In this document: one piece after another, positions 8,190 through 23,753 of the stretch | How positions within the stretch are numbered: the stretch's first letter is position 1 | How the letters are laid out: the number at the start of each line of letters is the position of its first letter | Assembly (NCBI GenBank): GCA_006503475.1 | Contig: RSEH01000404.1 | Coordinates: 1 to 24,487 of the forward strand | DNA from: Stentor roeselii | Lineage: Eukaryota > Ciliophora > Heterotrichea > Heterotrichida > Stentoridae | Length of the DNA: 24,487 nt | Direction: 5' to 3' | Notes under the pieces: generated by a model | The model's database searches: none | What the model was told of the DNA's origin: nothing | Seen by the model: only the letters and a program-made list of their open reading frames with translations | Program-made: the position numbers and the translations under genes

Positions 8190-8495
8190 CTAACTCACAC
8201 TTTTGATGTATCTTCCGAGCATCTCTCTGATCAGTTCTTTCAATTCAAAAAAATCGATTGAACCTGAATTGTTAGAGTCGAGGATTTCTAAGACTTTTTC
8301 TTTATTTTCTATGGGAATCGAGATATTTTTTAATGGACCTTCTTTTGATTCTGAGTTTTCTTCTCCCCAAAGCTTTTTTTCTAGTTCTTCTCTGGATATT
8401 TCTCCTGAAAGGTCATCGTCTAGTTGTTCGAAGATGATTTTTGTCAGTTGTATTATTTTTTCATCGTCTTTTATGAACTCCTGGATTGTCTCCAT
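8190..8495 (-). CDS. Small EF-hand calcium-binding protein (minus-strand copy)
   Basis: A 101-residue protein with two EF-hands. Loop 1 is DDDLSGEISREE (about residues 26-37), canonical at positions 1, 3, 5, 6, 8 and 12. Loop 2 is DSNNSGSIDFFE, also canonical. The N-terminus METIQEFIKDDEKIIQLTKI mirrors the start of the neighbour at 8501, so the two are divergent paralogues. The role is probably a Ca2+ sensor or buffer; partners are unknown. Six bases upstream of its ATG, on its own strand, is TATAGACA, which lies inside the first codons of the neighbouring gene. The stop is 8 bases before the YIPF5-like start. Confidence 0.85.
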   Translation of the reverse strand: METIQEFIKDDEKIIQLTKIIFEQLDDDLSGEISREELEKKLWGEENSESKEGPLKNISIPIENKEKVLEILDSNNSGSIDFFELKELIREMLGRYIKSVS

Positions 8496-8500
8496 TTATA

Positions 8501-8842
8501 ATGTCTATAATCAACGAGTTGCTGGCAAATGAAGAAAAACTGGAAAAATTAGCGAAGATCATGTTTGACGCGATTGATAATGACGAGTCCGGCAAAATTA
8601 AAAAGGATGAACTGGCTGACTTTTTATCAGGCAAAGAAAAAGAAGACAAAAACTCGTATAAAGGAATCACAAAGAAAGAATCGCTGAAAGAAGAGGAAAA
8701 AGAAGAAAGTAAAGATAAACCACTTAGCATTGAATTATTAGAGCAGGCTTGGAATATCATCAACTCTGATGGTTCAGATGATATTGACCTGGGTGAGTTT
8801 AAAGAGTTTCTACGGCAACTTTTGGAGAGTTTGATTAATTAA
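8501..8842 (+). CDS. Small EF-hand calcium-binding protein (plus-strand copy)
   Basis: The product is 113 residues from ATG 8501 (MSIINELLANEEKLEKLAKI), chosen because it matches the start of the paralogue at 8190-8495. An in-frame ATG at 8486 would overlap that gene's coding sequence. EF loop 1, DNDESGKIKKDE, is canonical. Loop 2, NSDGSDDIDLGE, has Asn at position 1 and Asp in place of the usual Gly at position 6, so Ca2+ binding there may be weaker. The linker between the hands is a Lys/Glu-rich run longer than in the paralogue. The start codons of the two genes are separated by only 5 bp (TTATA). Confidence 0.85.
   Translation: MSIINELLANEEKLEKLAKIMFDAIDNDESGKIKKDELADFLSGKEKEDKNSYKGITKKESLKEEEKEESKDKPLSIELLEQAWNIINSDGSDDIDLGEFKEFLRQLLESLIN
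8502..8509 (-). promoter_or_regulatory. TATAGACA octamer upstream of the minus-strand EF-hand gene
   Basis: The minus strand reads TATAGACA six bases before the ATG at 8495. The same octamer, or one close to it, precedes the four finger-protein genes. Here it overlaps the start codon of the divergent EF-hand gene. It may be an initiator or transcription-start element; this is inferred from position only. Confidence 0.4.
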
Positions 8843-8940: not shown

Positions 8941-9243
8941 ATGGTTAACTACAAAGACCATCGAGGAGGGTACAAATGGCATGAAGGTTATTTCGACTTA
9001 TACCGTTCTCCGAAGATCAAACGTTTATCCTTCCGTCAAATCATTTTCGTCACAAGTACAATGGCCTTAGTGCTACCCTTAAACCAGTTATTAAAGCACC
9101 TGATCAACTCTCTTCCTTACTGGGAAAACAGAGTAACTTTCACGTAGAGACTCTCAATGCAAGACTCGAAAAGCAAGTTCGACTTGATGATTTCTTCTAA
9201 TGGAAAACAAACTGGCCAGGTAAAATCGATGAGTGTTTTTTAA
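8941..9243 (+). CDS. Small single-helix membrane protein, 95 aa, one 15-nt intron
   Basis: Exon 1 (8941-9132) gives 64 codons starting MVNYKDHRGGYKWHEGYFDL. Removing GTAACTTTCACGTAG (9133-9147) joins it in frame to exon 2 (9148-9243), which adds RLSMQDSKSKFDLMISSNGK and a short tail to TAA. Without splicing the frame stops at the TAG inside the intron. There is one hydrophobic helix at about residues 33-50 (IIFVTSTMALVLPLNQLL), with a basic, aromatic N-terminal side. I do not recognise the family. Size and layout resemble small subunits of mitochondrial inner-membrane complexes, but that is only an impression. The PHB-depolymerase-like gene follows 24 bases downstream on the same strand. Confidence 0.65.
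9133..9147 (+). other. 15-nt intron with in-frame stop
   Basis: The sequence is GTAACTTTCACGTAG: GTAA donor, AG acceptor, A at position 10. It lies between complete codons (phase 0), and its last three bases are a stop codon, so unspliced RNA would give a 68-residue product. Confidence 0.75.
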
Positions 9244-10214: not shown

Positions 10215-10604
10215 TTAGTTATTAAACTTCTCGTTGTTAAGAACCTCTTTGGCACCTATCAACTTGCATTGAAGGTAAAAAGAACCTCCCAGGGAAGGGT
10301 CGTTTAAAGATATCAGGTTTTTGAATTTCTTTGAAATTTCACTTGGGTCTGAAGAAGTCACTTCGAGAAGGGCTTTGGCTTCTTCTATTGTCATTTTTCT
10401 TGGAGGCTTTTTGACTTGAAGAGGAATTTGTTCTTCGATGGGCTCTTCTGGTTGAGGGACTTCTTGAAGGTCTTTATTGACTTGAGTTGATTTGTGTTCT
10501 GTCTGGTTTTTACCTTTTATTACATTTCTAGCTGCTGTGAAAATAGTCTTCACGAGAGAAGCAGCATAGTTATCAATGACCCACTTGATGAAAAACTTGA
10601 CCAT
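10215..10604 (-). CDS. PAM16: PAM16/TIM16, mitochondrial import motor subunit
   Basis: The product is 129 residues from Met at 10604. An N-terminal amphipathic/hydrophobic segment (MVKFFIKWVIDNYAASLVKT) is followed by an acidic, Pro-rich linker. The degenerate J-like domain spans residues 71-124: MTIEEAKALLEV, FKNLISLNDPSLGGSFYLQC and KLIGAKEVL. GGSFYLQ and the absence of an HPD motif are typical of TIM16 (Magmas), which pairs with TIM14/PAM18 and regulates mtHsp70 at the TIM23 channel on the matrix side. An upstream in-frame Met at 10634 would overlap the PEX3 coding end and was rejected. The ATG is 7 bases below the PEX3 stop. Confidence 0.92.
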   Translation of the reverse strand: MVKFFIKWVIDNYAASLVKTIFTAARNVIKGKNQTEHKSTQVNKDLQEVPQPEEPIEEQIPLQVKKPPRKMTIEEAKALLEVTSSDPSEISKKFKNLISLNDPSLGGSFYLQCKLIGAKEVLNNEKFNN

Positions 10605-10611
10605 ACTTATA

Positions 10612-11622
10612 TTAGATGTAGTTCCCCAAGTCAAAGAAAATCATTCTTCCAAGTATTCCATAGTCTTCCCAAGTCGTGAATCCATCTTTTTTCCTTATAA
10701 TCGGAATGACTTTAGCGAAATCAAGAATAGTTCCTCTGAGTCCCTGTGGGTCATTATGTCCGTTTTTCACGATATCTTCTTCAAGTTCACTTTGAACGAT
10801 ATCAAAAAGTTTCTCAATTCTTTCTTTAAGTTCCTTCTGCACTTCAGGTCTGACTGTGACTTACAAGCATAGGACTTCGATGATGTCTTTTAAACATGGG
10901 TCGTTTTTTAGTTCTTCAGGAAAGACCTTGACAGAGAACTCGTAAACAGGCATAGGAATCCTTGTCACTGTATTAAGCTTCATCTTGATTTTGCAGAAGA
11001 GGTCACTCAAGTCATCCCCATTCAGGTCAGATCGAACAGGGACCCTACCTGTGAATTACTTTGAAATAACTGGCTCTATTCTTTCTTTGATGAAAGAAGT
11101 GATTGGGTGGTCCTCAATGATTATTTTATTCAGTAGGTCTACACTTTTAGTCATGTCTGAAGAATCTACACCTTCTTGTTCTTTTCTTGCTGATAAGTGA
11201 GTCGAAATCATGAAAAGCATTTTAAAGATCTCTGAACAGTAAATGTTTGTCAGAAGCTCGCTGAAGACTGATAAGGACAGAGAACCCCAGATCTCTTCTT
11301 TTGAGGATAAAATCGACTTGTTTCTCAGCTGGCTTAAGTAAAAATCGCAGTCTTTCAGACGGACACGATTCCAGACGGTGAACCTTCTTTGAACACGCTC
11401 GAAAAGAAGCTCTGACCTGCTTTTGAATTACATCTGGTGACCTCCGTCTAACATGTTTTTCGCGTTTGATAAGGTCGACTTTATTTCAAGTAGAGTTTTT
11501 ATTGCGCTTCGGTATTTCCATAAGGTTTTTAGAATGTATAGGAAAAGACCTGATACACTCAGTAGAAGCAATAGTTTCGGCTTTGAGAGAGAAAGTAAAG
11601 ATGACATCTTGGAAATACGCAT
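10612..11622 (-). CDS. PEX3: Peroxin-3 (PEX3), four exons with three 15-nt introns
   Basis: Exons 11622-11432, 11416-11060, 11044-10865 and 10849-10612 join to 966 nt, a 321-residue protein ending GNYI. All three introns are phase 2, and splicing removes the stop that ends each piece. Residues about 15-32 form a membrane anchor (KLLLLLSVSGLFLYIL) preceded by basic residues, as in PEX3. The block EEIWGSLSLSVFSELLTNIY, then FKMLFMISTHLSAR, lines up with the [21 protein letters not shown] and following region of animal PEX3, and the late LDFAKVIPII matches its LAKIIPI motif. PEX3 is the peroxisomal anchor for PEX19 and inserts membrane proteins into peroxisomes. Each fragment alone would look like an orphan frame. 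I am fairly sure of the family; a search with the spliced protein would settle it. Confidence 0.85.
10850..10864 (-). other. 15-nt intron, PEX3 intron 3
   Basis: GTAAGTCACAGTCAG on the minus strand, phase 2, with A at position 10. Its TAA would otherwise end exon 3 after CTTG. The codon TT|A is restored by splicing. Confidence 0.8.
11045..11059 (-). other. 15-nt intron, PEX3 intron 2
   Basis: GTAATTCACAGGTAG on the minus strand, phase 2, with A at position 10. It splits codon AA|G. Without splicing the frame ends at the TAA inside. Confidence 0.8.
11417..11431 (-). other. 15-nt intron, PEX3 intron 1
   Basis: GTAATTCAAAAGCAG on the minus strand, phase 2, with A at position 10. It splits codon AT|G. 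The TAA within it ends the unspliced 64-residue frame. Confidence 0.8.
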
Positions 11623-12203: not shown

Positions 12204-13697
12204 TTAAAAATAAACTAAGCTAGCTGAAAGTCCATCAAAATAAGGTATCCAAAGTTCAATCAATCCAAAAATACATTCAAAACCCAAAAACTTTTGCCTG
12301 GTATCCGGATTTTTCAAAAAGTTTCTTAAATTCTCCAAGACCATAATAGTAGGAACTGAAATTTTTCCAAGACAATTAAAGATTGGACAAATATAACTGA
12401 ATTCTTTAAAAATAGCATCTGGTTGAGTTTGGTAAGTGTAAAGAAACTGATAAATATTTGATGAGCATTGAAGAGTTAAACATTCAATGCAAATATTGTG
12501 GTTGCAGAGAAAACCGGTAACTGATTTTGTCGAGTTGCACAAGGAACAGTAGGGAATTAATAGTGGAGAAGCAGTGATGCTGTAATTTGCAAGAAAAACA
12601 TCTTCTTTCGGGTCGATTGGCTTAGATTTTTCGTTTGATGATGGGGGAGGGTTCATTATTCTATTATCTCTCATTCCATCTATGCTTTTTAGTTCAGTTG
12701 ATAAATTGGGTAATGCCAGTTCGCATTTAACTGACTTTGATTCAAAGAATATCGATTTACTTAGAGATGGAGTTAAAGTTCTTAGTAAAGTTTCATTTGG
12801 ATGGATGTCGCGATTCACTTTTTGTAACTCTTTAGAATTTTGGGAAACATTGGAATTATTGATGTTTTTTTCGCTTTGATCAGAGTAAAATAATTGATCT
12901 TCTTGATGTAAAATTTCAAAATGATCTTTTTTAGAGATAGGTTTCGATTGATCTTTTGCTTTAAATTTACTATTGAAATTATGAATTTCTTTAGATTCTA
13001 ATTTTTTTTTAGTACCCTTATCTTTCGGTTTAGTGTTATTCTTAGCACAATTGTCACAACATACCTTTTTCTCAAAATGCTCATTTTCGGTTAAATTTTG
13101 TATACATAATTGTTTACATTTCTTACATTTTTTCATCTTAATATTTGAATGATTATTCCCATTTGTACCACTACTTTCATAATCATCATTAAAGGATTTT
13201 TCTGAGTTTTGATCTACTAATATTGAGGTTTTAACATTTTTTTGCAAGAACTCCAAATTTTCTGTATTTTTATAAATTAATTTCTTTCCAGTTTTCAATT
13301 GATTATCATCAAATTTTATCATTCCTAGGTTTTTAGTTAAATCTTTAGATTTCTTGATATTTTTAGATTTTTGTTTCTTGTTAAAATTGAGGGAAGCTAC
13401 TCTTCTTTTAAGTTCATTATTTTCGAGGGGACTAATCTTTGAACCCTGGCTTTCTTCATTTGAACCTAGAAGTTTAGTTTCGATAGAAATTTTTTTAATT
13501 TTATTAGATTGAGATTCTATGATACTTGAATTACTTTCTTTATTTACCTGAGGGCTAAGTAATTCATTTTTTCCGTCTGATTGAATAATTTTCTGAAAAG
13601 TTCCAATAGCTGGAACTGAAACATTAGATCTTGGTGAACATTGATTGACTAATTTCTTATTGTTGAAGTTAGACAAAATTTTATACTTCCCAGGCAT
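12204..13697 (-). CDS. Finger protein A: C-terminal RBR-RING1-like finger, 497 aa
   Basis: Paralogue A of the tandem family. The conserved C-terminal finger has ligands C384, C387, C398, H400, C403, C406, C437 and C442 (with an extra C411), followed by GKISVPTIMVLENLRNFL and WIPYFDGL at the end. C-x4-C in CPIFNC plus the I-VPT strand resembles RING1 of RBR ligases (ARIH1/parkin type), but there is no IBR or RING2. The N-terminal fingers of its relatives are reduced to C191, C194, C198, C213, C214 and C217 without the His, so this part is vestigial or divergent. The rest is Lys/Ser/Asn-rich and probably disordered. It starts MPGKYK, so it lacks the acylation end of B and C. The ligase function is inferred, not shown. 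Confidence 0.75.
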   Translation of the reverse strand: MPGKYKILSNFNNKKLVNQCSPRSNVSVPAIGTFQKIIQSDGKNELLSPQVNKESNSSIIESQSNKIKKISIETKLLGSNEESQGSKISPLENNELKRRVASLNFNKKQKSKNIKKSKDLTKNLGMIKFDDNQLKTGKKLIYKNTENLEFLQKNVKTSILVDQNSEKSFNDDYESSGTNGNNHSNIKMKKCKKCKQLCIQNLTENEHFEKKVCCDNCAKNNTKPKDKGTKKKLESKEIHNFNSKFKAKDQSKPISKKDHFEILHQEDQLFYSDQSEKNINNSNVSQNSKELQKVNRDIHPNETLLRTLTPSLSKSIFFESKSVKCELALPNLSTELKSIDGMRDNRIMNPPPSSNEKSKPIDPKEDVFLANYSITASPLLIPYCSLCNSTKSVTGFLCNHNICIECLTLQCSSNIYQFLYTYQTQPDAIFKEFSYICPIFNCLGKISVPTIMVLENLRNFLKNPDTRQKFLGFECIFGLIELWIPYFDGLSASLVYF

Positions 13698-14208
13698 TTA
13701 TATTAATGTCTACAAAATGTATAATAACTCATTACTAACTGTAGATTTGATAACTCAATTTTATATAGGATGAAAATTTAGTTGGATCAGCTAATTAAAG
13801 AGTTTAATCAATTTAAAGAAGATATAAGAAAGATAAGCTCTGATAAGTTATCAATGAATTACTAAAAATTTAGGTTATCTTTCTTAAATAGATTAGGGTA
13901 GCGAATTCCTATTCGAAATTCACTAGAATCCCTAATATGTAGATTAATAATCAAATAAAACCATGATCATCTTGATAAAACTCCTAATACATATTTTTTT
14001 GTTAGATAAATTACATCTTTCAACACTTACAAGTCAAAAGATAACAGTTAAAATCTCAAACTGATAAAATAAAACCAAAAATCAATACCTTCTTATGAAA
14101 ACCTCTGAAATAAATTCAATTCAAAATTTTATATAAAATATAGCATTATCCAACATAATAAACTGATTAAAGAGATGAAGAAAACTAAGTAACTTATCTA
14201 TACCTATC
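13698..14208. other. Spacer between finger genes A and B
   Basis: 511 AT-rich bases with no supported gene. The end next to gene A holds its TATAGACA-like element (13707-13713). Confidence 0.6.
13707..13713 (-). promoter_or_regulatory. TAGACA-type element upstream of finger gene A
   Basis: The minus strand reads GTAGACA, 9 bases before the ATG at 13697. It is the A-gene version of the octamer seen before B, D and the minus-strand EF-hand gene. Confidence 0.35.
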
Positions 14209-16239
14209 TCAAAAGAGTTCATAAGAAGAAAGGCCATCGAAAAAAGGGACCCATAGATCAATTCCTTCTAAAACATACTGAAAACCTTTGAAATTCACCT
14301 CAAGCTGAGGTGTCTTGAGGAATCTCTTTAAGTTCTCAACAACCATCATCGTAGGGACTGAAATCTTCGAAGAGCAATCCTGGACAGGACAAAAATAATG
14401 AAAGTCTTTCAACAATACTTCTTTATTCACTTGGTAATTCTGAAAGAACACATTAATGTCATAAAGACATTTCCAAGTCAGACAAACCTGACAAATATTA
14501 TGATTGCATAAAAAGCCGAAAACTGAATCACTACTCTTGCATAAAGAACATTCAACTGCAAGGTTTCCAAAAGAAAAGTCTTCGTTTCGAATTGAGTCTT
14601 TTTTGCTTGCTCTAAAAAATTTATCTTCTTGATTTTCTCTAATTAAATCTTTGCTTTCTATTGAATATTTCTCTTCTGGATTTTCTCTAATTAAATCATT
14701 ATTTTCTTTGAAATATTTCTCTTCTGGATTTTCTCTGAATAAATCATTATTTTCTTTGAAATATTTTTCTTCTGGATTTTCTCTAATTAAATCTTTCTTT
14801 TCTTTTAAATATTTCTCTTCTGGATTTTCTCTGAATAAATCATTATTTTCTTTTAAATATTTCTCTTCTGGATTCACTCTAAATAAATCGTTTTTTTTTC
14901 CAATTGAATTTTCTTTTGCATCCTTAAAACTATCTGAGACTTGGAAAAAATATTCCTTTTGTTCTAAGGATTCACTTTTGACTGAAAATGAAAGAATATC
15001 ATTAGGCGATACTTCAGGAGTTTCCAAATTTTTGTCAATTTGAGTTAAATGTTGTATAGATGGCTCAAAGTCAGGTTTCTCATTTTTTTTATTAGAGTCT
15101 GAATTGTTTAAAGCTGGAAAAATCGAAGAAAAAGGAGGAAAGTTAGGATTTTTTGAAGAAAAAATAGAATTGCTTGGTTGAATCTGTTTTTTCAATGAAC
15201 TTTGAAATTCTAGTTTCCCGAAATTTCGAGTATTGAAGGTAGGAAGTTTTCCAGTTTTTAAGCAAATTTCACAAAGATTTTTATCTGATTTTAGATTATT
15301 TTTCAAGAAAACTTTGCAATTCGAACAAAAAGTGTCAGGAACTTGCTTGAAGGGCTGGTTTAGATGAGAAGAGTGAGATGACTGACTGATACCATCATTT
15401 CTATCCCCAGGATTTAAAAGTTGATTTGATCCTCCAGAGGACTTTTTCGTGTTTCTTTCACTAGAAGAAGCCTTTGATTCCTCAAGGAAGGTCTTTTTGA
15501 TGTCCTTCTGTTTAGAATCATTCTGAATATCTTGACAGAATTTCAAGCAGTCCAAGCATTTTTCACTAACTTTTTCTTTATTTGGACTCGTAATGCAACT
15601 ATCACAGAACCTGTGGAGTTCACATACTTGAGTAGAAAATTTGTTAATATTTAAAATAATGTCACAACTAATGCACTGATTCCCTTTTAATCCTAACTGA
15701 AAATTAGCAAACTTTTCAGATACTCGTTGGCCGGATTGATTCAAGTTTTCTTTAAAATCAACTGAGAAATCAGGTGTTTGACTAGAAGAAATAAGAGCAT
15801 TTGAGTCTAAATTTTTAAGAAGTAAACCAGGTTGTTTTGAATATTCATTGGAAGTAAAGCAGTATTTACATTGGGAATTCTCATTTTCTAAAAAATTTTC
15901 TGTTTTAATGCATTCTTTGCAAAGAAAGTGCCTGGGACATAACTTGATCAAATTTTCAAGATTATCAAGTTTTTTACAATTTGAGCATCTAAACATTGAG
16001 ATAGAGTTTAAGTTGCTTGTTTTAATCGATGGACTCTTGGCTTTTGAAGAGTTTGAAAAGAGATTTGAAGTCTGATTCTCTTCTTTTTTACGAGGAACTG
16101 AAGGGAAATGTTCTTGTGATTGTTTCTTTACAGGGCCTGGCTGTTGTTTGTTCTTTTGTTGAATTCTGTCTTGGGCTGATTTCGTATCAGAGCTTTTTAA
16201 AGAATTTTTTACTTCTGGACTAGAGCAGCATAATCCCAT
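14209..16239 (-). CDS. Finger protein B: lipid-anchored multi-RING-like protein, 676 aa
   Basis: The N-terminus MGLCCSSPEVK is a classic N-myristoylation plus double-palmitoylation end, so membrane attachment is likely. Two complete RING-like fingers follow: C85, C88, C101, H104, C107, C110, C124, C127 and C189, C192, C206, H209, C212, C215, C228, C231. A half finger has C305, C308, C323 and C326. Residues 451-546 are six copies of a 16-residue unit (DLFRENPEEKYLKENN). The C-terminal family finger uses C564, C567, C578, H580, C583, C586, C617 and C622, then KISVPTMMVVENLKRFL and WVPFFDGL. As in the whole family, the RBR parts after RING1 are missing. A membrane-bound E3 or scaffold is my guess. 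Confidence 0.8.
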   Translation of the reverse strand: MGLCCSSPEVKNSLKSSDTKSAQDRIQQKNKQQPGPVKKQSQEHFPSVPRKKEENQTSNLFSNSSKAKSPSIKTSNLNSISMFRCSNCKKLDNLENLIKLCPRHFLCKECIKTENFLENENSQCKYCFTSNEYSKQPGLLLKNLDSNALISSSQTPDFSVDFKENLNQSGQRVSEKFANFQLGLKGNQCISCDIILNINKFSTQVCELHRFCDSCITSPNKEKVSEKCLDCLKFCQDIQNDSKQKDIKKTFLEESKASSSERNTKKSSGGSNQLLNPGDRNDGISQSSHSSHLNQPFKQVPDTFCSNCKVFLKNNLKSDKNLCEICLKTGKLPTFNTRNFGKLEFQSSLKKQIQPSNSIFSSKNPNFPPFSSIFPALNNSDSNKKNEKPDFEPSIQHLTQIDKNLETPEVSPNDILSFSVKSESLEQKEYFFQVSDSFKDAKENSIGKKNDLFRVNPEEKYLKENNDLFRENPEEKYLKEKKDLIRENPEEKYFKENNDLFRENPEEKYFKENNDLIRENPEEKYSIESKDLIRENQEDKFFRASKKDSIRNEDFSFGNLAVECSLCKSSDSVFGFLCNHNICQVCLTWKCLYDINVFFQNYQVNKEVLLKDFHYFCPVQDCSSKISVPTMMVVENLKRFLKTPQLEVNFKGFQYVLEGIDLWVPFFDGLSSYELF
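14602..14889 (-). repeat. Six 48-bp tandem repeats coding for a 16-aa unit in finger protein B
   Basis: Residues 451-546 repeat DL[F/I]RENPEEKYxKExx six times. The inner four copies are nearly identical at DNA level and the outer ones diverge (VNPEEK first, ENQEDKFF last), as expected for growth by unequal exchange. The unit is strongly charged and probably helical. The opposite strand is also open across it, which is a by-product. Confidence 0.9.
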
Positions 16240-16599
16240 TTTATAATTGTCTATAAAAAAATATTTAGAATCTTTAATTTGAATTGAATTGATAAAAATG
16301 ATCTTAAGTCTTTAACAAGAATTCTTTTATATGATGAGGTGCTCAATCAGTGCAATTTGGATAAAATTGTAAAGAAAATTACTGAAATAAAATTTGGGTT
16401 TAACTGAACATATTCGCGTCTTTTTTTATTTAGTGGAGAGGTAAATTATTCTTAATCTTTAGATTATTTATAAAAAGGCATCTATTATCAATGATATATT
16501 GACAAAAAGGCTTGTTAATTACTAAAACTTTCTGAAGGTGATTCGCAAGTAATATTCAAACAAATCTAAAAATTATTTCACAGATCTACTCAAATTAAT
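16240..16599. other. Spacer between finger genes B and C
   Basis: 360 AT-rich bases with no gene. The octamer of gene B sits at its B-proximal end. Confidence 0.6.
16248..16255 (-). promoter_or_regulatory. TATAGACA octamer upstream of finger gene B
   Basis: The minus strand reads TATAGACA, 8 bases before the ATG at 16239. It is identical to the element before gene D and the minus-strand EF-hand gene. Confidence 0.4.
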
Positions 16600-18135
16600 C
16601 TATCTAAAATAAACTTCAATAAAATCAAGTCCATCAAAAAAAGGAATCCACTCTTCAATAACTTCTAAAATATATTCAAAAAACACGAATTTTTCCCGAA
16701 AATAAGAATTATTCAAATATCTCCTTAAATTTCCTTCAATCATCTTAGTCGGCACTGAAATAACTGAGTTGCATTGTTCAACAGGGCAATAATAATGAAA
16801 GTTTTTAAGCAGAACTTCTCTCATTTTAATATCTTCAACATTAAAAACGCCTTTCGAGATAGTTTCATCGTTTTTCTTCTTGACTTCAAAAAATTCATAA
16901 ATATCTTTTAAACATTTCCAAGTGAGACAAACTTCACAAATGTTATGATTGCATAGAAAGCCGATGATATTATTTGTATCCTGATTGCATATATTACAGG
17001 AAAGAATAATCAAAAATATGCTGTCGTTCCTTTGAAGCGGAATTGGAAAATCATTGATGTCTTGCTGTTTATCTTCTGTTTTTACCACTTCTTGTTTTTC
17101 AGTCGAATTTTTTGTTTTTTTTGATTTTTTTTTCCTTTTTTTTTTATTTTTTAAGTTTTCATCAGCTTGATGAAGGTTTTCATTTGAAACGATAATTTCA
17201 GCGTCTTCTTCACAACCGATTTCATAGGGATTAGTAGAAGATGATTCTTTATGTTTTGTTATTTTTGACTTAGCTTGATATTCATATAAATCATTTGAAT
17301 CTTCAAACAGGAATTGTTTACATGAGTGGAAGAAACCCGGCTCTTTACTTTTCGAACCATACGGGCTTAATAAGTAAGAATTAGAGTTTTTCGGAGTACT
17401 TTGATGGAAATTTAAGTCCTGGCCAGTTTTAATTGCTGGGCTCAATTGATATACCTGTCTGCATGATGAAAATTTACTTGATTTTTGATTCTTGAAGTAT
17501 GAGAAACAGTCTTTACAAGATAGCCAGATTTTTTTAAGATCCGGATCCGAGATGCAATGTAAACAGTACTTGTGAATTTTACATTCGTTTATTGAATACT
17601 TGTCCTTAATTAAACTTTTACTACAGCTGATGCATTTAATGATAGATTTTTTCGACTTAGAAAATTTTTTACTTGACTTTTCTTCGTCAGGTATGGAACT
17701 ACCTGATTTTTTTAACTTTTTCGCTGATTTATAGCATTTTTTGCAAATTTCTTTTAGATGTCGTCGAAAAGATTCTGAATTTATGCATTCGGTACAAAAA
17801 TAATGCGATTTGCAGAGTTGTGTGTTTTCTTTAGTTTCTTTTTTGCATAGAGCACAGTTTTTAGATGGAATTTTAGAATTTTCGTCTTGAAAAATGATGC
17901 TGAATTGATTTATTGTTTTAGTAAGGGAATCGCTTTCATCTTGAGCACTTTTCGATATATTTAGTGATTGGGTTACTAAATTTTTTTTTTTTGACTTAGT
18001 TTCATTTAGTTGAATAGATGAAGAATGATTTGATTTTGATTTTTCTTTCAATTCTTCTGAAAATTTATGATTTCGACTTTTTGGCTTTTTTATTGAAGAG
18101 TGGCGAGTTTTAGAATGAGAGATGCATGCACCCAT
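16600..18135 (-). CDS. Finger protein C: lipid-anchored multi-RING-like protein, 511 aa
   Basis: It starts MGACISHSK, with Gly2 and Cys4 fitting myristoylation and palmitoylation. Finger 1 uses C94, C97, C108, H111, C114, C117, C131 and C134; finger 2 uses C168, C171, C185, H188, C191, C194, C207 and C210. A polar middle contains a very basic run KKKRKKKSKKTK (about 331-342), a possible nuclear or phosphoinositide-binding patch. The family finger uses C380, C383, C395, H397, C400, C403, C450 and C455. Its loop before CPVEQC is about 16 residues longer than in A and B. The end is WIPFFDGL then EVYFR. It is closest to B in layout but lacks B's tandem repeats and half finger. Confidence 0.8.
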   Translation of the reverse strand: MGACISHSKTRHSSIKKPKSRNHKFSEELKEKSKSNHSSSIQLNETKSKKKNLVTQSLNISKSAQDESDSLTKTINQFSIIFQDENSKIPSKNCALCKKETKENTQLCKSHYFCTECINSESFRRHLKEICKKCYKSAKKLKKSGSSIPDEEKSSKKFSKSKKSIIKCISCSKSLIKDKYSINECKIHKYCLHCISDPDLKKIWLSCKDCFSYFKNQKSSKFSSCRQVYQLSPAIKTGQDLNFHQSTPKNSNSYLLSPYGSKSKEPGFFHSCKQFLFEDSNDLYEYQAKSKITKHKESSSTNPYEIGCEEDAEIIVSNENLHQADENLKNKKKRKKKSKKTKNSTEKQEVVKTEDKQQDINDFPIPLQRNDSIFLIILSCNICNQDTNNIIGFLCNHNICEVCLTWKCLKDIYEFFEVKKKNDETISKGVFNVEDIKMREVLLKNFHYYCPVEQCNSVISVPTKMIEGNLRRYLNNSYFREKFVFFEYILEVIEEWIPFFDGLDFIEVYFR

Positions 18136-18784
18136 GATAAGTCTCTATTTTTATAAATTTATTATTCTATAAAATGATCAAAATTCCTGAAATTGGAGAC
18201 TTCGAGTTTTTCATGTTTAAGTGATGATTGATTCAGATACTTGTAAAACTTTAAATTATTAAGGTTAGGTTTAATTGTTCTTCTTTTGTTGAAGAATGAA
18301 CAATCAATTGGAAGGAATGAAAAATGATTATAAATAGTTGAGTGATATTTAAGGAATATTTTTAGTAAAAGTTGAATCCGGTTATAAATTGAATGAAATC
18401 TGAGTTAAAAGAGTAAAAAATTTAGGTTATCAAGTTTTTCATATATTATTTATGTATATGATAAGAATGATAAGGAAAGAAAACATCATATTTAGTTTTT
18501 CAAAGGTAAAGCCTCTGAATAATTTTTCCACTATTTTAGCTCAATTTAGATTATTAAAACTAATCACCTAAAGCTCTTAAATAAATATTTAATTTCAATG
18601 ATAAAATTATATCAATATCAACTTAATAACCATAAATTTTCTCTTTATTTAAATTAATATTTCCACACTAATACTCTCCAATTAGTAATCAACTCAGATT
18701 GATTGTTTTGACCACAAATCCAAAAAGTTCTTATCTCAATCAATCATACATACCAAATAAAATAAACTAAACCAATTAACCTAC
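18136..18784. other. Spacer between finger genes C and D
   Basis: 649 AT-rich bases with no supported gene or repeat. The part next to gene D is C-rich on the given strand, like the 3' ends of the other family members. Confidence 0.6.
18141..18148 (-). promoter_or_regulatory. Variant ATAGAGAC element upstream of finger gene C
   Basis: The minus strand reads ATAGAGAC, 5 bases before the ATG at 18135. It is a looser match to TATAGACA than those before B and D, so the assignment is weak. Confidence 0.25.
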
Positions 18785-20857
18785 CTATCTAAAATAAATT
18801 TCATCATAATGCAATCCATCAAAAAAAGGAATCCATGCCTCAATACCATTCATATATAAATCAAAAAGTTGCCAAAATTCCTGAAATTTTTTATTTCCTC
18901 TAAAAATTTTATATTTTTCAATAATCATTACAGTGGGAACTGAAATTTTCCCCTTACATTCCGGAATTGGACACAAGTAAGTAAATTGTTTAACATTGAC
19001 TGGTTGCCCCATTTTCTGTAACTTAAAAAAATCAACAATTTGCTGAAAACATTTCAACGTAAGGCACTCTTCACAGAACTTATTTCCGCATTTAAAACTT
19101 TTGACCTGCTGATAAGAGTTGCAAATATTACAATCATCAGTATTTTTTTTATTGAAACTATTCGTGGTCATCATCCTGTTATCTGTTGTTGCAGGATTAG
19201 AGACTGTTGAGTATCTGTTATCTGTTGTTGCAGGATTAGAGACTGTTGAGTATCGGTTTTGAACCTCTTTGCTTGAAGAAATAGCTTGATTGAAAAGGTT
19301 TGAGTTGAAATGTGAAAGTTGACTGGTTTTTTGAATGTAAGGGTCAGTTGAAGAAGGTCCTGAGATTTGATTGGAGAAGTTGTTTGAGTTGTTTACAGTT
19401 GGAGGGTTTTTCATTGCTTCTTGGGGCCTATTATGAGGATTATAAGGAACTTGGCTGCCTTGATTGTCAAATCGAGTTGAAAATGATTTTCTTGCATTTT
19501 GAGTTGCACTTTCATATGTTCTTTGATCGAAAGTACTCACTTGACTTGATTTTGAAGATGGGTCAGTTGAAGCAGGTCCAGGGATTTGATATGAGATGTT
19601 TGAAGGGTTTTTCAAGTCAACTTCTTGACGTTGAACATTGATAGGAACTTGGTAGCTTTGATTGCTTATTCTAGCAGGATACGAATTTCTCAAGTTTTGA
19701 GTTGCAGTTCTCCTTTCATCGAAATTATTCACTTGGCTTGATTTTCTAAAGAAAGTTGAACATGCAGGACAAGATAAATCGAAATTGCTTGAGTTGTTTA
19801 AACATCTGTCACAAAACAAGTGAACTTTGCACTCAGGATGTGAAAATTTTTCAGTTGTTAATCCTTTTTGGCAGTTGTAGCATCTGATTTCAGTAAAGGC
19901 TTTAAGAGGTTCATTAAATTGATCAGGTGAAGAATGTAAAATAAATGCTTTAACTGGAATCTCTCTATTATTTCCTGGGACTTGTTGAAATGCACTGTTT
20001 TTTGGACTAGTTAAAATTTGAGTGGAATTAAAAACTGGGTTGGGTGGATTTTGTCGATTTCTCATGTTGGATGGGATCATGCTTCTTGTTGATAAACTGA
20101 AGCGTTTATAACAATCCTGGCATTTTTTCTCTAAAAATTCAATATTTGGCTTAGTTATGCATTTATCACAGAAAGTGTGAATCCGGCATTCTGGTATTTT
20201 GAACTTGTTGTTTGTCAACTTGGAATCACAACTGATGCAGATGATTTCTTGGTTGACGAATCCTGCTGATCTCGGCTTTCGCGTTGATTCTGTGATACTC
20301 ATTCTTTCAGTACGGCCTGAACTGGATTGATGCTCTGTAGATGGCCTTTGCTTGTATTGTTTATAAATTATTAAGCAATTTTCACAAGAATAAAGTTTTT
20401 GTATTTTGTTTTGATTTTGAAGGCAAAAATTGCAGTATGAATGAGATTCACAGAATTTAATAATCTCGCTTTGTGAGAAGGTGTTGTTACAAAGTGAACA
20501 TCTTGAATCAGGAAAAGAAGATTTTGGGTTGCCTTGAGAAGATGTATGGATTTCTGAACTTTTGTTGTAAAGTTGCGGATTCTCGGATTTTTGGTCTTTC
20601 AAGATTTTTTCTTGATTTCTTGTTTTTTTTAAGTGATTCAGGGAATAGATTGAAGACGGGTCAGGCTCATTTGAAGAATGGGTTATTGGTAGCTTATTTT
20701 GACCTCCTATATTGTTGGTGTTAGGTTTTAATGAATGCGCATCATCATTGCTACTATATGGAAATGAATTTGCTTTATACATAGAATTACGAAGGCCTGT
20801 TGAAGAATCAGACACTCTCGATACATTTCTTGAATTGAAGGAACTTTTACCAGACAT
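18785..20857 (-). CDS. Finger protein D: four finger modules, 690 aa
   Basis: Three regular RING-like fingers: C120, C123, C136, H139, C142, C145, C158, C161; C207, C210, C224, H227, C230, C233, C246, C249; C326, C329, C343, H346, C349, C352, C363, C366. The family C-terminal finger has C576, C579, C590, C595, C598, C629 and C634, but the fourth ligand is Asn592 (CGNKFC instead of CNHNIC), so zinc binding there may be altered. The ending KISVPTVMIIEKY, WIPFFDGL and EIYFR is conserved. Residues 373-518 and 535-560 are internally repeated. It starts MSGKSS and has no acylation cysteine. It has the most fingers of the four. Confidence 0.8.
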   Translation of the reverse strand: MSGKSSFNSRNVSRVSDSSTGLRNSMYKANSFPYSSNDDAHSLKPNTNNIGGQNKLPITHSSNEPDPSSIYSLNHLKKTRNQEKILKDQKSENPQLYNKSSEIHTSSQGNPKSSFPDSRCSLCNNTFSQSEIIKFCESHSYCNFCLQNQNKIQKLYSCENCLIIYKQYKQRPSTEHQSSSGRTERMSITESTRKPRSAGFVNQEIICISCDSKLTNNKFKIPECRIHTFCDKCITKPNIEFLEKKCQDCYKRFSLSTRSMIPSNMRNRQNPPNPVFNSTQILTSPKNSAFQQVPGNNREIPVKAFILHSSPDQFNEPLKAFTEIRCYNCQKGLTTEKFSHPECKVHLFCDRCLNNSSNFDLSCPACSTFFRKSSQVNNFDERRTATQNLRNSYPARISNQSYQVPINVQRQEVDLKNPSNISYQIPGPASTDPSSKSSQVSTFDQRTYESATQNARKSFSTRFDNQGSQVPYNPHNRPQEAMKNPPTVNNSNNFSNQISGPSSTDPYIQKTSQLSHFNSNLFNQAISSSKEVQNRYSTVSNPATTDNRYSTVSNPATTDNRMMTTNSFNKKNTDDCNICNSYQQVKSFKCGNKFCEECLTLKCFQQIVDFFKLQKMGQPVNVKQFTYLCPIPECKGKISVPTVMIIEKYKIFRGNKKFQEFWQLFDLYMNGIEAWIPFFDGLHYDEIYFR
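19176..19253 (-). repeat. Perfect 39-bp tandem duplication in finger gene D
   Basis: Positions 19176-19214 and 19215-19253 are identical and code twice for RYSTVSNPATTDN. With no base change between the copies the duplication is recent, or is an assembly or allelic artefact. Confidence 0.9.
19304..19741 (-). repeat. Degenerate long tandem repeat in finger protein D
   Basis: Residues 373-436 and 437-510 share SSQV-FD-R, ATQN-R-S, QVP, KNP, Q-GP-STDP in the same order; a third partial unit starts at 511 (TSQLSHFN). Units are about 64-74 residues, Ser/Asn/Gln-rich and probably unstructured. Confidence 0.7.
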
Positions 20858-23753
20858 CGTGCTTTTATTATGTCTATATTTATTTAAGAATTATAATAAG
20901 TATGCTAGTATTTAAACTTGAATCAGTTTTAGATTAGATTTTGATTATTTGTTGATAGATTTATTAGTTTCTTTGATTAATAGATATCACATTGTTTAAT
21001 TTAAGGAAATTTTTTCTAGGTTTATTCAGAGATTTCTTTAATTTCAATAATTTCATAAATTCTGTAAATGGCATTTCCCTTTGACTCACTCATAAACAAT
21101 TTATTACTTACAGCAATTTTTAAAATTTTTTCAGTAAAAGATCTTACTTTATCAGATATTCAATTTTAACAAATTAAATCATATAATTAATGAATTTGCT
21201 AAGTTTAAGAGATAAGCTACTTATAATGATTCCTTTTTGTAAGTTATAATCTAGGGAAATACATTAACGATAATTATATAAAATTGGTTCTTTAACTATT
21301 TTATTATTTCTTTACAAACTTTCTGGTCTAGAACAATTGCATTTGAGTTTTTTCTAAATTTTCTAAAATATTCTATGTTACTCGCGATAATTTAAGGTTA
21401 AATTTTAATCAACCAATTGAAATAATATCAAGTTTTACTGTAATTAGAAGCCACACATATCAAAATATCATTAACTTTGGAGTTTTGTTAATTATTTTAA
21501 CAATAATTCTATTAGTAGTTAGAAATTAACTAATTCTTCTCTGATACTAAATAAAATGATTTCATCAAATTCTAATTATAGAACTTTGATGGATTAAGTC
21601 ACGATTTAAATAAGTTCCTACAAGAAAAGCTTGGTTTAGATTTATTAATGAATTTAAGGATTTATTATTGAAGCTTAACCTTAATGAAGGATAAATGCTG
21701 TGTAGGGGAATTTTATGATTCTGATTACTATTTCTAATATAAGAATTATAAAGATGAATGAAAAAGAGTGTATTTATTAGAAAGGAGAAGAACTTAGATC
21801 AATTTTGATTTTGATGCTAGCCATTCCGTTTAATTAAAACTTTGTGATTTGAAGATGATTAATTTCTATTAGGCTAAGATTAAATTTACATGAAATTTTA
21901 AGATCATGCCAAGAAAACTTTAAAAAAAAGTTTAAACAAATATTCAGAAGCTCTAATCTTTTATTTTTATTAGAAGAAGCTGACAATTCTTTAACTTTTT
22001 GATATTATGAAGAGTTTATTAAATTTTGGAATTTATTGATGGAGGTTTGTCGGTTGATTGTTGTGAGATTATAAATTTTAATTCTATTTGTTAAGTTTAA
22101 TTGAAAGAAATTATGTTTAATTCAGCTTGATATAACCTCAACTCACATTATTTAAATTTATCGCTATTTATAACCTCAGAATATTCTCTGTAAATATTCA
22201 CAGTTTTAGTTTTTCAATACTGAGGATTCAGTTTTATAAATGCATTCACTTAATAATAGGATTAATTTTAGGTAAAATTTCATAACAATAATGATTAATT
22301 ATTAGCTTAATTATAGATAATCTATCTGCAATGTACTTATATATTCCTGATAGATGATCTAATTTCATATATTACCGAATGAATCATATTTCAATTATAT
22401 AAATTTTGTTATTTTCATCTGAAGTTATATCTGGTTCATAATTCTATTCAATTGATAGTTTTAAATCCTGATACTCTGAAAAGTAGTATTCATGAGAGGG
22501 ACTGTTGTGCCAATGATCAACAGTAAGTTATGATATGATTGGAAAGATGCTGTTTTATATTAATTATTGATTCTACCCTTCGAGTAAACTGTTGTACTAA
22601 TGGTACCTTGCAGTACACTAGTAGTCCGATATTTGAGAAGAAATTGAAATGAACTTCATCTGAATCATCCACTTAATTAAATTTGTTTAATTGTTGAAGT
22701 TTAGTAGCAAGGAAGATCAAATTTTTAATTTGTATCAAAGGATATACTTAAAGAATGCTTGACATTGATTTCAATGTTATAAATCAAAGGTAAGGAAATA
22801 TAAATACTGAAATAAGATATTATAAACATCTCAATAATATTGATTGATTATGTGAATATGCCTCTTTTATTTATAAGGTAAAAATCTTTATTGGATCATG
22901 AACTAATTATTTCTAAATAACGACCACATTCATAGATTTATGATTTAATTGGTTAGCTTAATGATAATTAATTCAAATTGTATGATTTGAAACGAAAGAT
23001 ATCTGATTTATTTCTAAGAAATCATTTAATATATCATCTAGGCTACTTTGTAATTATTGAGAAAAGACTAGTTGGCTTGTGAGGTTTGATTATAACTTTG
23101 AGTAAATAATTAAAAGTAATATTTTTAGAAATACTTAGAGAATTAATGTTTTAATCACAGTTTAATCTAAAGTTAATTTCCTTTTTATACTAAATGATAT
23201 TGCATTTCTTTATAAAAATCATATCAAATAATAGAAAAACTAAACAAACATTTTTTTATAATTCTTTTCCAAAGATCTTCGTTTAAGAGGCTCCATTCAA
23301 TGATTGATCAAATAACATTCTGCAAATGTAAAAAAAAGAACTGAAAACTAATTGAATTATTAGAAAGAAAGACTATCAATCATGCAAAGCTTAGTAGGCC
23401 AAAAATGAGATATTTAGAAATCTAGGTTTTAGAGATATTTTTATGTTAATCACAGCGATGAGCTTCTTCACCCTGATCTGAATCTTAAATTATTATTAGT
23501 TGTTTGTAGGGTTCCTGAAGGCATTGTATCTTTGGACAAATCGATTGTCTTTTAATGAAATTCTTTAATTAAAAATTTTAGAAGTTTATATTTGAGAATT
23601 AGTGATTAAGTTTATGTGCAATTATTACTGTTTAGAGAAGGAAATAAATGGCTTACTAAAATAATCAAATGGAAACTTCAGTATATTTAGATTATGAAAA
23701 TAGATGAATAAGACAATTATTAAAATGATGAAACTAGCTAATTAAATTTGATA
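20858..23753. other. Gene-free AT-rich stretch of 2.9 kb
   Basis: No frame above background, no 15-nt-intron gene and no tRNA-like box was seen on either strand. Two patches are somewhat less AT-rich, at about 22480-22640 and 23440-23560, without a recognisable product. In a window where other gaps are 3-700 bp this is by far the longest. Confidence 0.5.
20871..20878 (-). promoter_or_regulatory. TATAGACA octamer upstream of finger gene D
   Basis: The minus strand reads TATAGACA, 13 bases before the ATG at 20857. Confidence 0.4.

Follow-up and report, generated by a model that had tools for sequence, protein, structure and literature searches.

What becomes of RING1 in a protein that ends directly behind it? 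This question is raised by a 24,487-nucleotide contig of the ciliate Stentor roeselii (RSEH01000404.1, the whole of which is referred to as the window; numbered C352 in an assembly of 522 contigs and 44.4 Mb), in which four genes, A to D, encode proteins ending in a zinc finger resembling RING1 of the RBR ubiquitin ligases, followed by a short conserved tail. In RBR ligases, RING1 is the E2-docking part and is usually accompanied by IBR and RING2, according to the part of PMC3305615 drawn on here. All four open reading frames (ORFs) are intact, lie on the minus strand and follow the standard code with zero internal stops. The original prediction of a common ending was borne out in each protein: C-x2-C-x10-C-x-H-x2-C-x2-C (x11 in C; N for H in D), then CP-x3-C, ISVPTxM and the tail W[IV]P[FY]FDGL. 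We tentatively regard the proteins as part of a genome-wide family that reuses an RBR RING1-like unit without IBR or RING2, and whose members would have a non-catalytic role in ubiquitin signaling, as scaffolds or adaptors, a reading to which we give slightly less than an even chance.

As had been claimed, neither IBR nor RING2 was found behind the finger. No IBR match was obtained in the four window proteins up to an E-value (E) of 10, nor among the best 25 of the 33 Pfam families matched by 26 family units, and none of the 103 IBR matches listed for the genome (E≤0.001) falls in a family gene. Likewise, no RING2 was found in the window proteins, whose chains end six to eight residues past the final Leu of the tail. 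In proteins of contig C152, finger and tail are followed by a second copy of the unit and not by RING2. Identity as RBR ligases was consequently rejected, since the family genes have no IBR match and, in the window, the chains stop behind the tail. The genome is otherwise rich in RBR-like proteins, the listed IBR matches often occurring two per protein; contig C122, which also harbors family genes, carries three of them, at least 16 kb from those genes.

The family extends well beyond the window. With protein C as query, the same genome yielded 29 places at E≤0.001; with a divergent unit as query it yielded 33 at E≤10, including two RBR-like proteins and one chance-level match. After merging, at least 27 genes with 29 units were counted, both numbers being lower bounds, as the search scores the best candidates only. 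The genes are distributed over 14 contigs: four in the window, six on C50, four on C517, three on C122, two on C152 (with two units each) and single ones on C13, C31, C109, C134, C139, C221 and C495, while one gene appears to be split over C259 and C346, the contig ends of which share 77 identical bases, so that these two contigs probably hold the halves of one gene. In one of the C152 genes, an in-frame stop separates the N-terminal part from the C-terminal one, which may mean a broken gene or an intron. The local expansion originally proposed is therefore too narrow a description, given the spread over contigs and the fact that D groups apart from A, B and C. The family is not covered by Pfam, nor does any Pfam family span the C-terminal region, as an unrelated known family might have done. 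For the comparisons below, 28 units were aligned, i.e. 26 selected for the DG of the tail plus those of C109 and C139, leaving out the split C259/C346 unit.

The sequence comparisons support, albeit with modest scores, a C-terminal finger that is nearer to the RING1 of RBRs than to the other RINGs in its own genome. Three sets from this genome were compared, namely 16 RBR RING1s (those of 20 loci that yielded a clean RING1-IBR stretch), 16 PF13639 fingers and 15 PF00097 fingers, the latter two sets each containing some fingers of the other kind. With hhalign, the family finger matched RBR RING1 at a probability of 94.7% (E 5.6e-8, in one comparison), the PF00097 set at 80.1% (E 1.4e-5) and the PF13639 set at 40.5% (E 2.9e-4); between RBR RING1 and the PF00097 set the match is 97.5% (E 8.6e-12). 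The hidden Markov model (HMM) of RBR RING1 outscored both other RING HMMs in all 28 units, in agreement with the RING1-like nature first suggested for the finger. An Ile nine residues past the sixth zinc ligand (C6+9) occurs in 28 of 28 units, compared with 13 of the 16 RBR RING1s. Zinc loop II reads C-x4-C in 20 units, including all four window copies, and C-x2-C in seven, the eighth ligand being lost in one. In canonical RINGs C-X2-C is invariable at this loop and a linchpin is found in over half of them, while RBR RING1s have C-X2-4-C and no linchpin, as stated in the sections of PMC5462532 used here. The canonical loop is thus lacking in those 20 units and present in the seven, and the linchpin Arg appears to be missing from most copies: the residue following the eighth ligand is Arg in one and Lys in four of 27 parsed copies (two mis-parsed, one further copy unparsed). 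An extra Cys five residues past the sixth ligand was also noted in 21 of 28 units, among them all four window copies; Gly (five) or Ala (two) stands there in the remaining seven.

The tail, for which the original prediction had no explanation, is an integral part of the domain, as follows from its internal position in the tandem-copy C152 proteins, and is sited where IBR would begin. It accompanies the finger in every copy with a readable end, and the DNA pattern for W[IV]P[FY][FY]DG gave 16 matches in 44.4 Mb, all in family genes, against 0 for the reversed control. Asp and Gly of the tail are invariant across the aligned units, 26 of which had been selected for them and two not, while Trp is absent in six C50 units. 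As for the fold, for which a non-RING zinc structure had been the envisaged counterexample, the one confident AlphaFold model ranks RBR structures highest: RBR ligases make up 23 of its top 28 structural matches, and the two best rows cover finger, helices and tail.

In the reading that we favor, the unit would comprise some 110 residues, i.e. the RING1-like finger, a stretch modeled as helical and the W-I-P-[FY]-F-D-G-L-type tail. The proteins would not be expected to act as RBR thioester ligases, because RING2 is lacking, nor as ordinary RING ligases, because the linchpin Arg is lacking and zinc loop II is extended in most copies. Instead, the C-terminal unit might dock an E2, an E2~ubiquitin (E2~Ub) conjugate held open, as by the isolated RING1 of HHARI or RNF144, or a different partner; additional partners would be recruited by the long middle of the protein and by the N-terminal RING-like fingers. 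Several results weigh against this. Single-unit HMM scores are weak, since only 17 of 28 units beat the best of 560 shuffled sequences with the RBR RING1 HMM, 11 being at or under it, and B, at 6.3 bits, does not exceed the best shuffle. A confident AlphaFold model was obtained in only one of ten cases, the best Foldseek hit is the RING of TRIM30 (E 0.094), and a second, low-confidence model had no structural match, which makes the fold a weak test. Finally, the residue at C6+4, corresponding to HHARI Tyr215, is Tyr in only five of 28 units and Lys or Gln in the four window copies, compared with Tyr in 14 of the 16 RBRs of this genome.

The last point weakens the E2 binding that had been proposed for the family, as the contact Tyr of the central helix is missing in all four window copies. 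At the position of HHARI Ile188 (C1+2), Leu, Ile or Phe occurs in 14 of 28 units, with Leu or Ile in all window copies and Ile in 14 of the 16 RBRs. In HHARI, the I188A/Y215A mutant loses detectable ligase activity (PMC5462532; Dove et al. 2017); the same source, in the parts considered, gives 116 nM for the binding of UbcH7~Ub by HHARI RING1 and states that closed E2~Ub is disrupted by the isolated RING1 of HHARI or of RNF144, while the consulted part of PMC3305615 has E2 reactivity not raised by HHARI RING1-IBR. E2 docking by the C-terminal unit is accordingly a possibility only.

Poorly kept E2-contact residues would also suit a different role, in which the fingers serve protein interaction only, have nothing to do with ubiquitin and assemble e.g. 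cortical or membrane structures. This we consider a serious if somewhat doubtful alternative. It fits the many small fingers and long linkers, as well as the loss of one ligand each in D, in C139 and in a C152 copy. By pattern (C-x2-C, C-x2-H-x2-C-x2-C, C-x2-C), 38 N-terminal fingers were found in 24 of 27 gene rows; they are missing from A, from a C50 row cut by the locus edge and from a C152 row, the upstream ORF of which, read separately, has two by eye. The additional RING-like fingers that had been noticed in B, C and D were recovered, namely two and a half-finger in B, two in C and three in D. The putative lipid anchors would fit such a role as well: the starts MGLCCS in B and MGACIS in C match the consensus for N-myristoylation plus palmitoylation, these being the only two readable family starts to do so, and B and C may hence be held at membranes, also under the scaffold reading. 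What speaks against modules unrelated to ubiquitin is the RING and RBR likeness of the fingers, RING and RBR families being mostly tied to ubiquitin. The N-terminal finger profile matched the PF00097 set best (hhalign 92.8%, E 4.1e-7), followed by RBR RING1 (89.8%) and the PF13639 set (89.6%), while the match to the family's own C-terminal finger was lower (71.5%) and no likeness to IBR was seen (1.6%). Pfam matches of the seven window N-terminal fingers include RING families, zf-RING_5 being the best (E-value in Table 1), below the curated cut-off. Leu, Ile or Phe stands at C1+2 in 16 of the 38.

The position of the tail invites another explanation, namely that an RBR protein was cut inside IBR and that its front part survives as the unit, with the tail as remnant of the first IBR strand (WCPxPxC), its zinc ligands changed to Ile/Val and Gly and its sequence kept by packing against the RING1 helices. 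A global profile alignment does place the tail on WCPMPDC of the RBRs, and the eighth ligand is 40 residues from Trp in the window copies, as against 35 to 38 in the 16 RBRs of this genome; over 17 C-x4-C units with Trp, however, this distance varies from 33 to 47. An anchored alignment of linker and tail was bettered or equaled by only 13 of 1000 shuffles, and an eight-column tail alignment was matched by only 36 of 5000, but the anchored test is post hoc, with stretches cut at the supposed register, the linker alone does not rise above shuffles (376 of 1000 as good) and unanchored hhalign fails (50 of 200 shuffles score as high in local mode, 95 of 200 in global mode). Similarly, the best structural matches stop about 15 residues into IBR, but the model has a helix running up to the tail and no hairpin, and Trp is absent from the six C50 copies. 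The resemblance to IBR is thus suggestive only, and we regard this origin as unlikely.

Less probable still is that the C-terminal finger is an ordinary RING-HC diverged beyond recognition, its RBR likeness merely reflecting the common RING fold, and that the proteins are ordinary RING ligases or scaffolds. This view would account for the TRIM30 hit, for the TRIM RING that tops a sequence search of solved structures (E 0.066), for the seven C-x2-C copies and for the RING-finger nature of the Pfam families that most members match. Yet the best TRIM matches reach no further than the first 30 or so of the 119 profile positions, and neither the higher RBR RING1 score in every copy nor the prevailing C-x4-C loop and the constant Ile is readily explained by it.

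A long shot, lastly, is that a ciliate lineage excised the E2~Ub-docking RING1 from RBRs and multiplied it as a free-standing module, which would hold E2~Ub open but have no catalytic Cys of its own; the proteins would then be E2~Ub buffers or antagonists, or else partners acting in trans for separate catalytic domains. A sizeable natural family with the RING1-like unit alone would reveal which part of RING1 is self-sufficient and supply isolated domains for testing how RING1 holds E2~Ub, while the C-terminal profile offers a means of recognizing this family in other ciliates.

The ciliate part of the original prediction fits the window. Twelve checked ORFs stop at TAA, TAG or TGA, with Trp encoded by TGG, and in the gene starting at 8941 an in-frame stop falls within a 15-nt GTAA...TAG stretch (9133-9147). 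This combination appears heterotrich-like, Stentor coeruleus having the standard code and introns of 15-16 nt (PMC9505925, in the part used). In the minus-strand frame at 10573-11622, each of the first three in-frame stops is contained in a 15-nt GTA...AG stretch (11417-11431, 11045-11059 and 10850-10864), as would be expected for tiny heterotrich introns. Other genes in the window include two EF-hand genes (Pfam), located head to head at 8190-8495 (minus) and 8501-8842 (plus) with five bases separating their start codons (8493-8503), and one encoding a Pam16-like protein (10215-10604; Pfam E 1.5e-10). TAGACA, which occurs only seven times in the window on both strands, is found within about 30 bases upstream of ATG at four of 15 listed ORF starts (8495, 13697, 16239 and 20857, minus strand), among them those of A, B and D, and is possibly a start-site motif. 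The roughly 3 kb at 20858-23753, with 23-26% G+C, contain no standard-code ATG ORF of at least 60 aa. The 16-residue insertion in C (Table 1) lies between the sixth and seventh ligand.

Table 1. Coordinates of the four family genes and their features in the window.
Gene	Feature	Position	Strand	Remarks
A	gene	12204..13697	-	497 aa; only degenerate Cys pairs N-terminally, then the C-terminal unit
A	RING1-like finger	12372..12548	-	zinc ligands 1-8
A	tail	12228..12251	-	WIPYFDGL
B	gene	14209..16239	-	676 aa; 16-aa repeats between two N-terminal RING-like fingers and the C-terminal unit
B	putative lipid-anchor motif	16222..16239	-	MGLCCS start
B	N-terminal finger 1	15859..15987	-	
B	N-terminal finger 2	15547..15675	-	
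B	mid-protein in-frame repeat	14615..14897	-	48 bp x 5.9
B	RING1-like finger	14374..14550	-	
B	tail	14230..14253	-	WVPFFDGL
C	gene	16600..18135	-	511 aa; two fingers in the N-terminal part, 16-residue insertion in the C-terminal unit
C	putative lipid-anchor motif	18118..18135	-	MGACIS start
C	N-terminal finger 1	17734..17856	-	
C	N-terminal finger 2	17506..17634	-	
C	RING1-like finger	16771..16998	-	
C	tail	16627..16650	-	WIPFFDGL
D	gene	18785..20857	-	690 aa; three fingers in the N-terminal part, Asn as ligand 4 of the C-terminal unit
D	N-terminal finger 1	20375..20500	-	
D	N-terminal finger 2	20111..20239	-	
D	N-terminal finger 3	19760..19882	-	Pfam zf-RING_5 E 2.1e-4, below curated cut-off
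D	RING1-like finger	18956..19132	-	
D	tail	18812..18835	-	WIPFFDGL

Compared with canonical RING-HC fingers (zf-C3HC4, zf-RING_5 and TRIM-type), the family shares the C3HC4 ligand order, and its N-terminal fingers fit the general RING pattern, being closest to the PF00097 set. The N-terminal fingers differ in having C-x2-H and, in most cases, a residue other than Leu, Ile or Phe at C1+2, while the C-terminal unit differs in the C-x4-C of most copies. With RING1 of the RBR ligases (HHARI/ARIH1, ARIH2, parkin, HOIP and RNF144) the C-terminal finger has in common the order and spacing of ligands, the C-x4-C zinc loop II of 20 of the 28 copies, the Ile nine past the sixth ligand, a CP preceding the eighth ligand in most copies and, in the one confident model, a helical stretch behind the finger. 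It departs from them in a loop of 30 residues between the sixth and seventh ligand, as against 18-19 in RBRs, in mostly lacking the E2-contact Tyr and in a tail without the IBR zinc ligands; the proteins as a whole lack IBR and RING2 and have N-terminal fingers added. Counterparts of similar extent are the HHARI RING1 constructs 177-270 and 184-286 described in the consulted sections of PMC5462532, which likewise consist of RING1 and the linker into the start of IBR. While those are engineered pieces of a complete ligase, the family unit is, in the window genes, the natural end of the protein.

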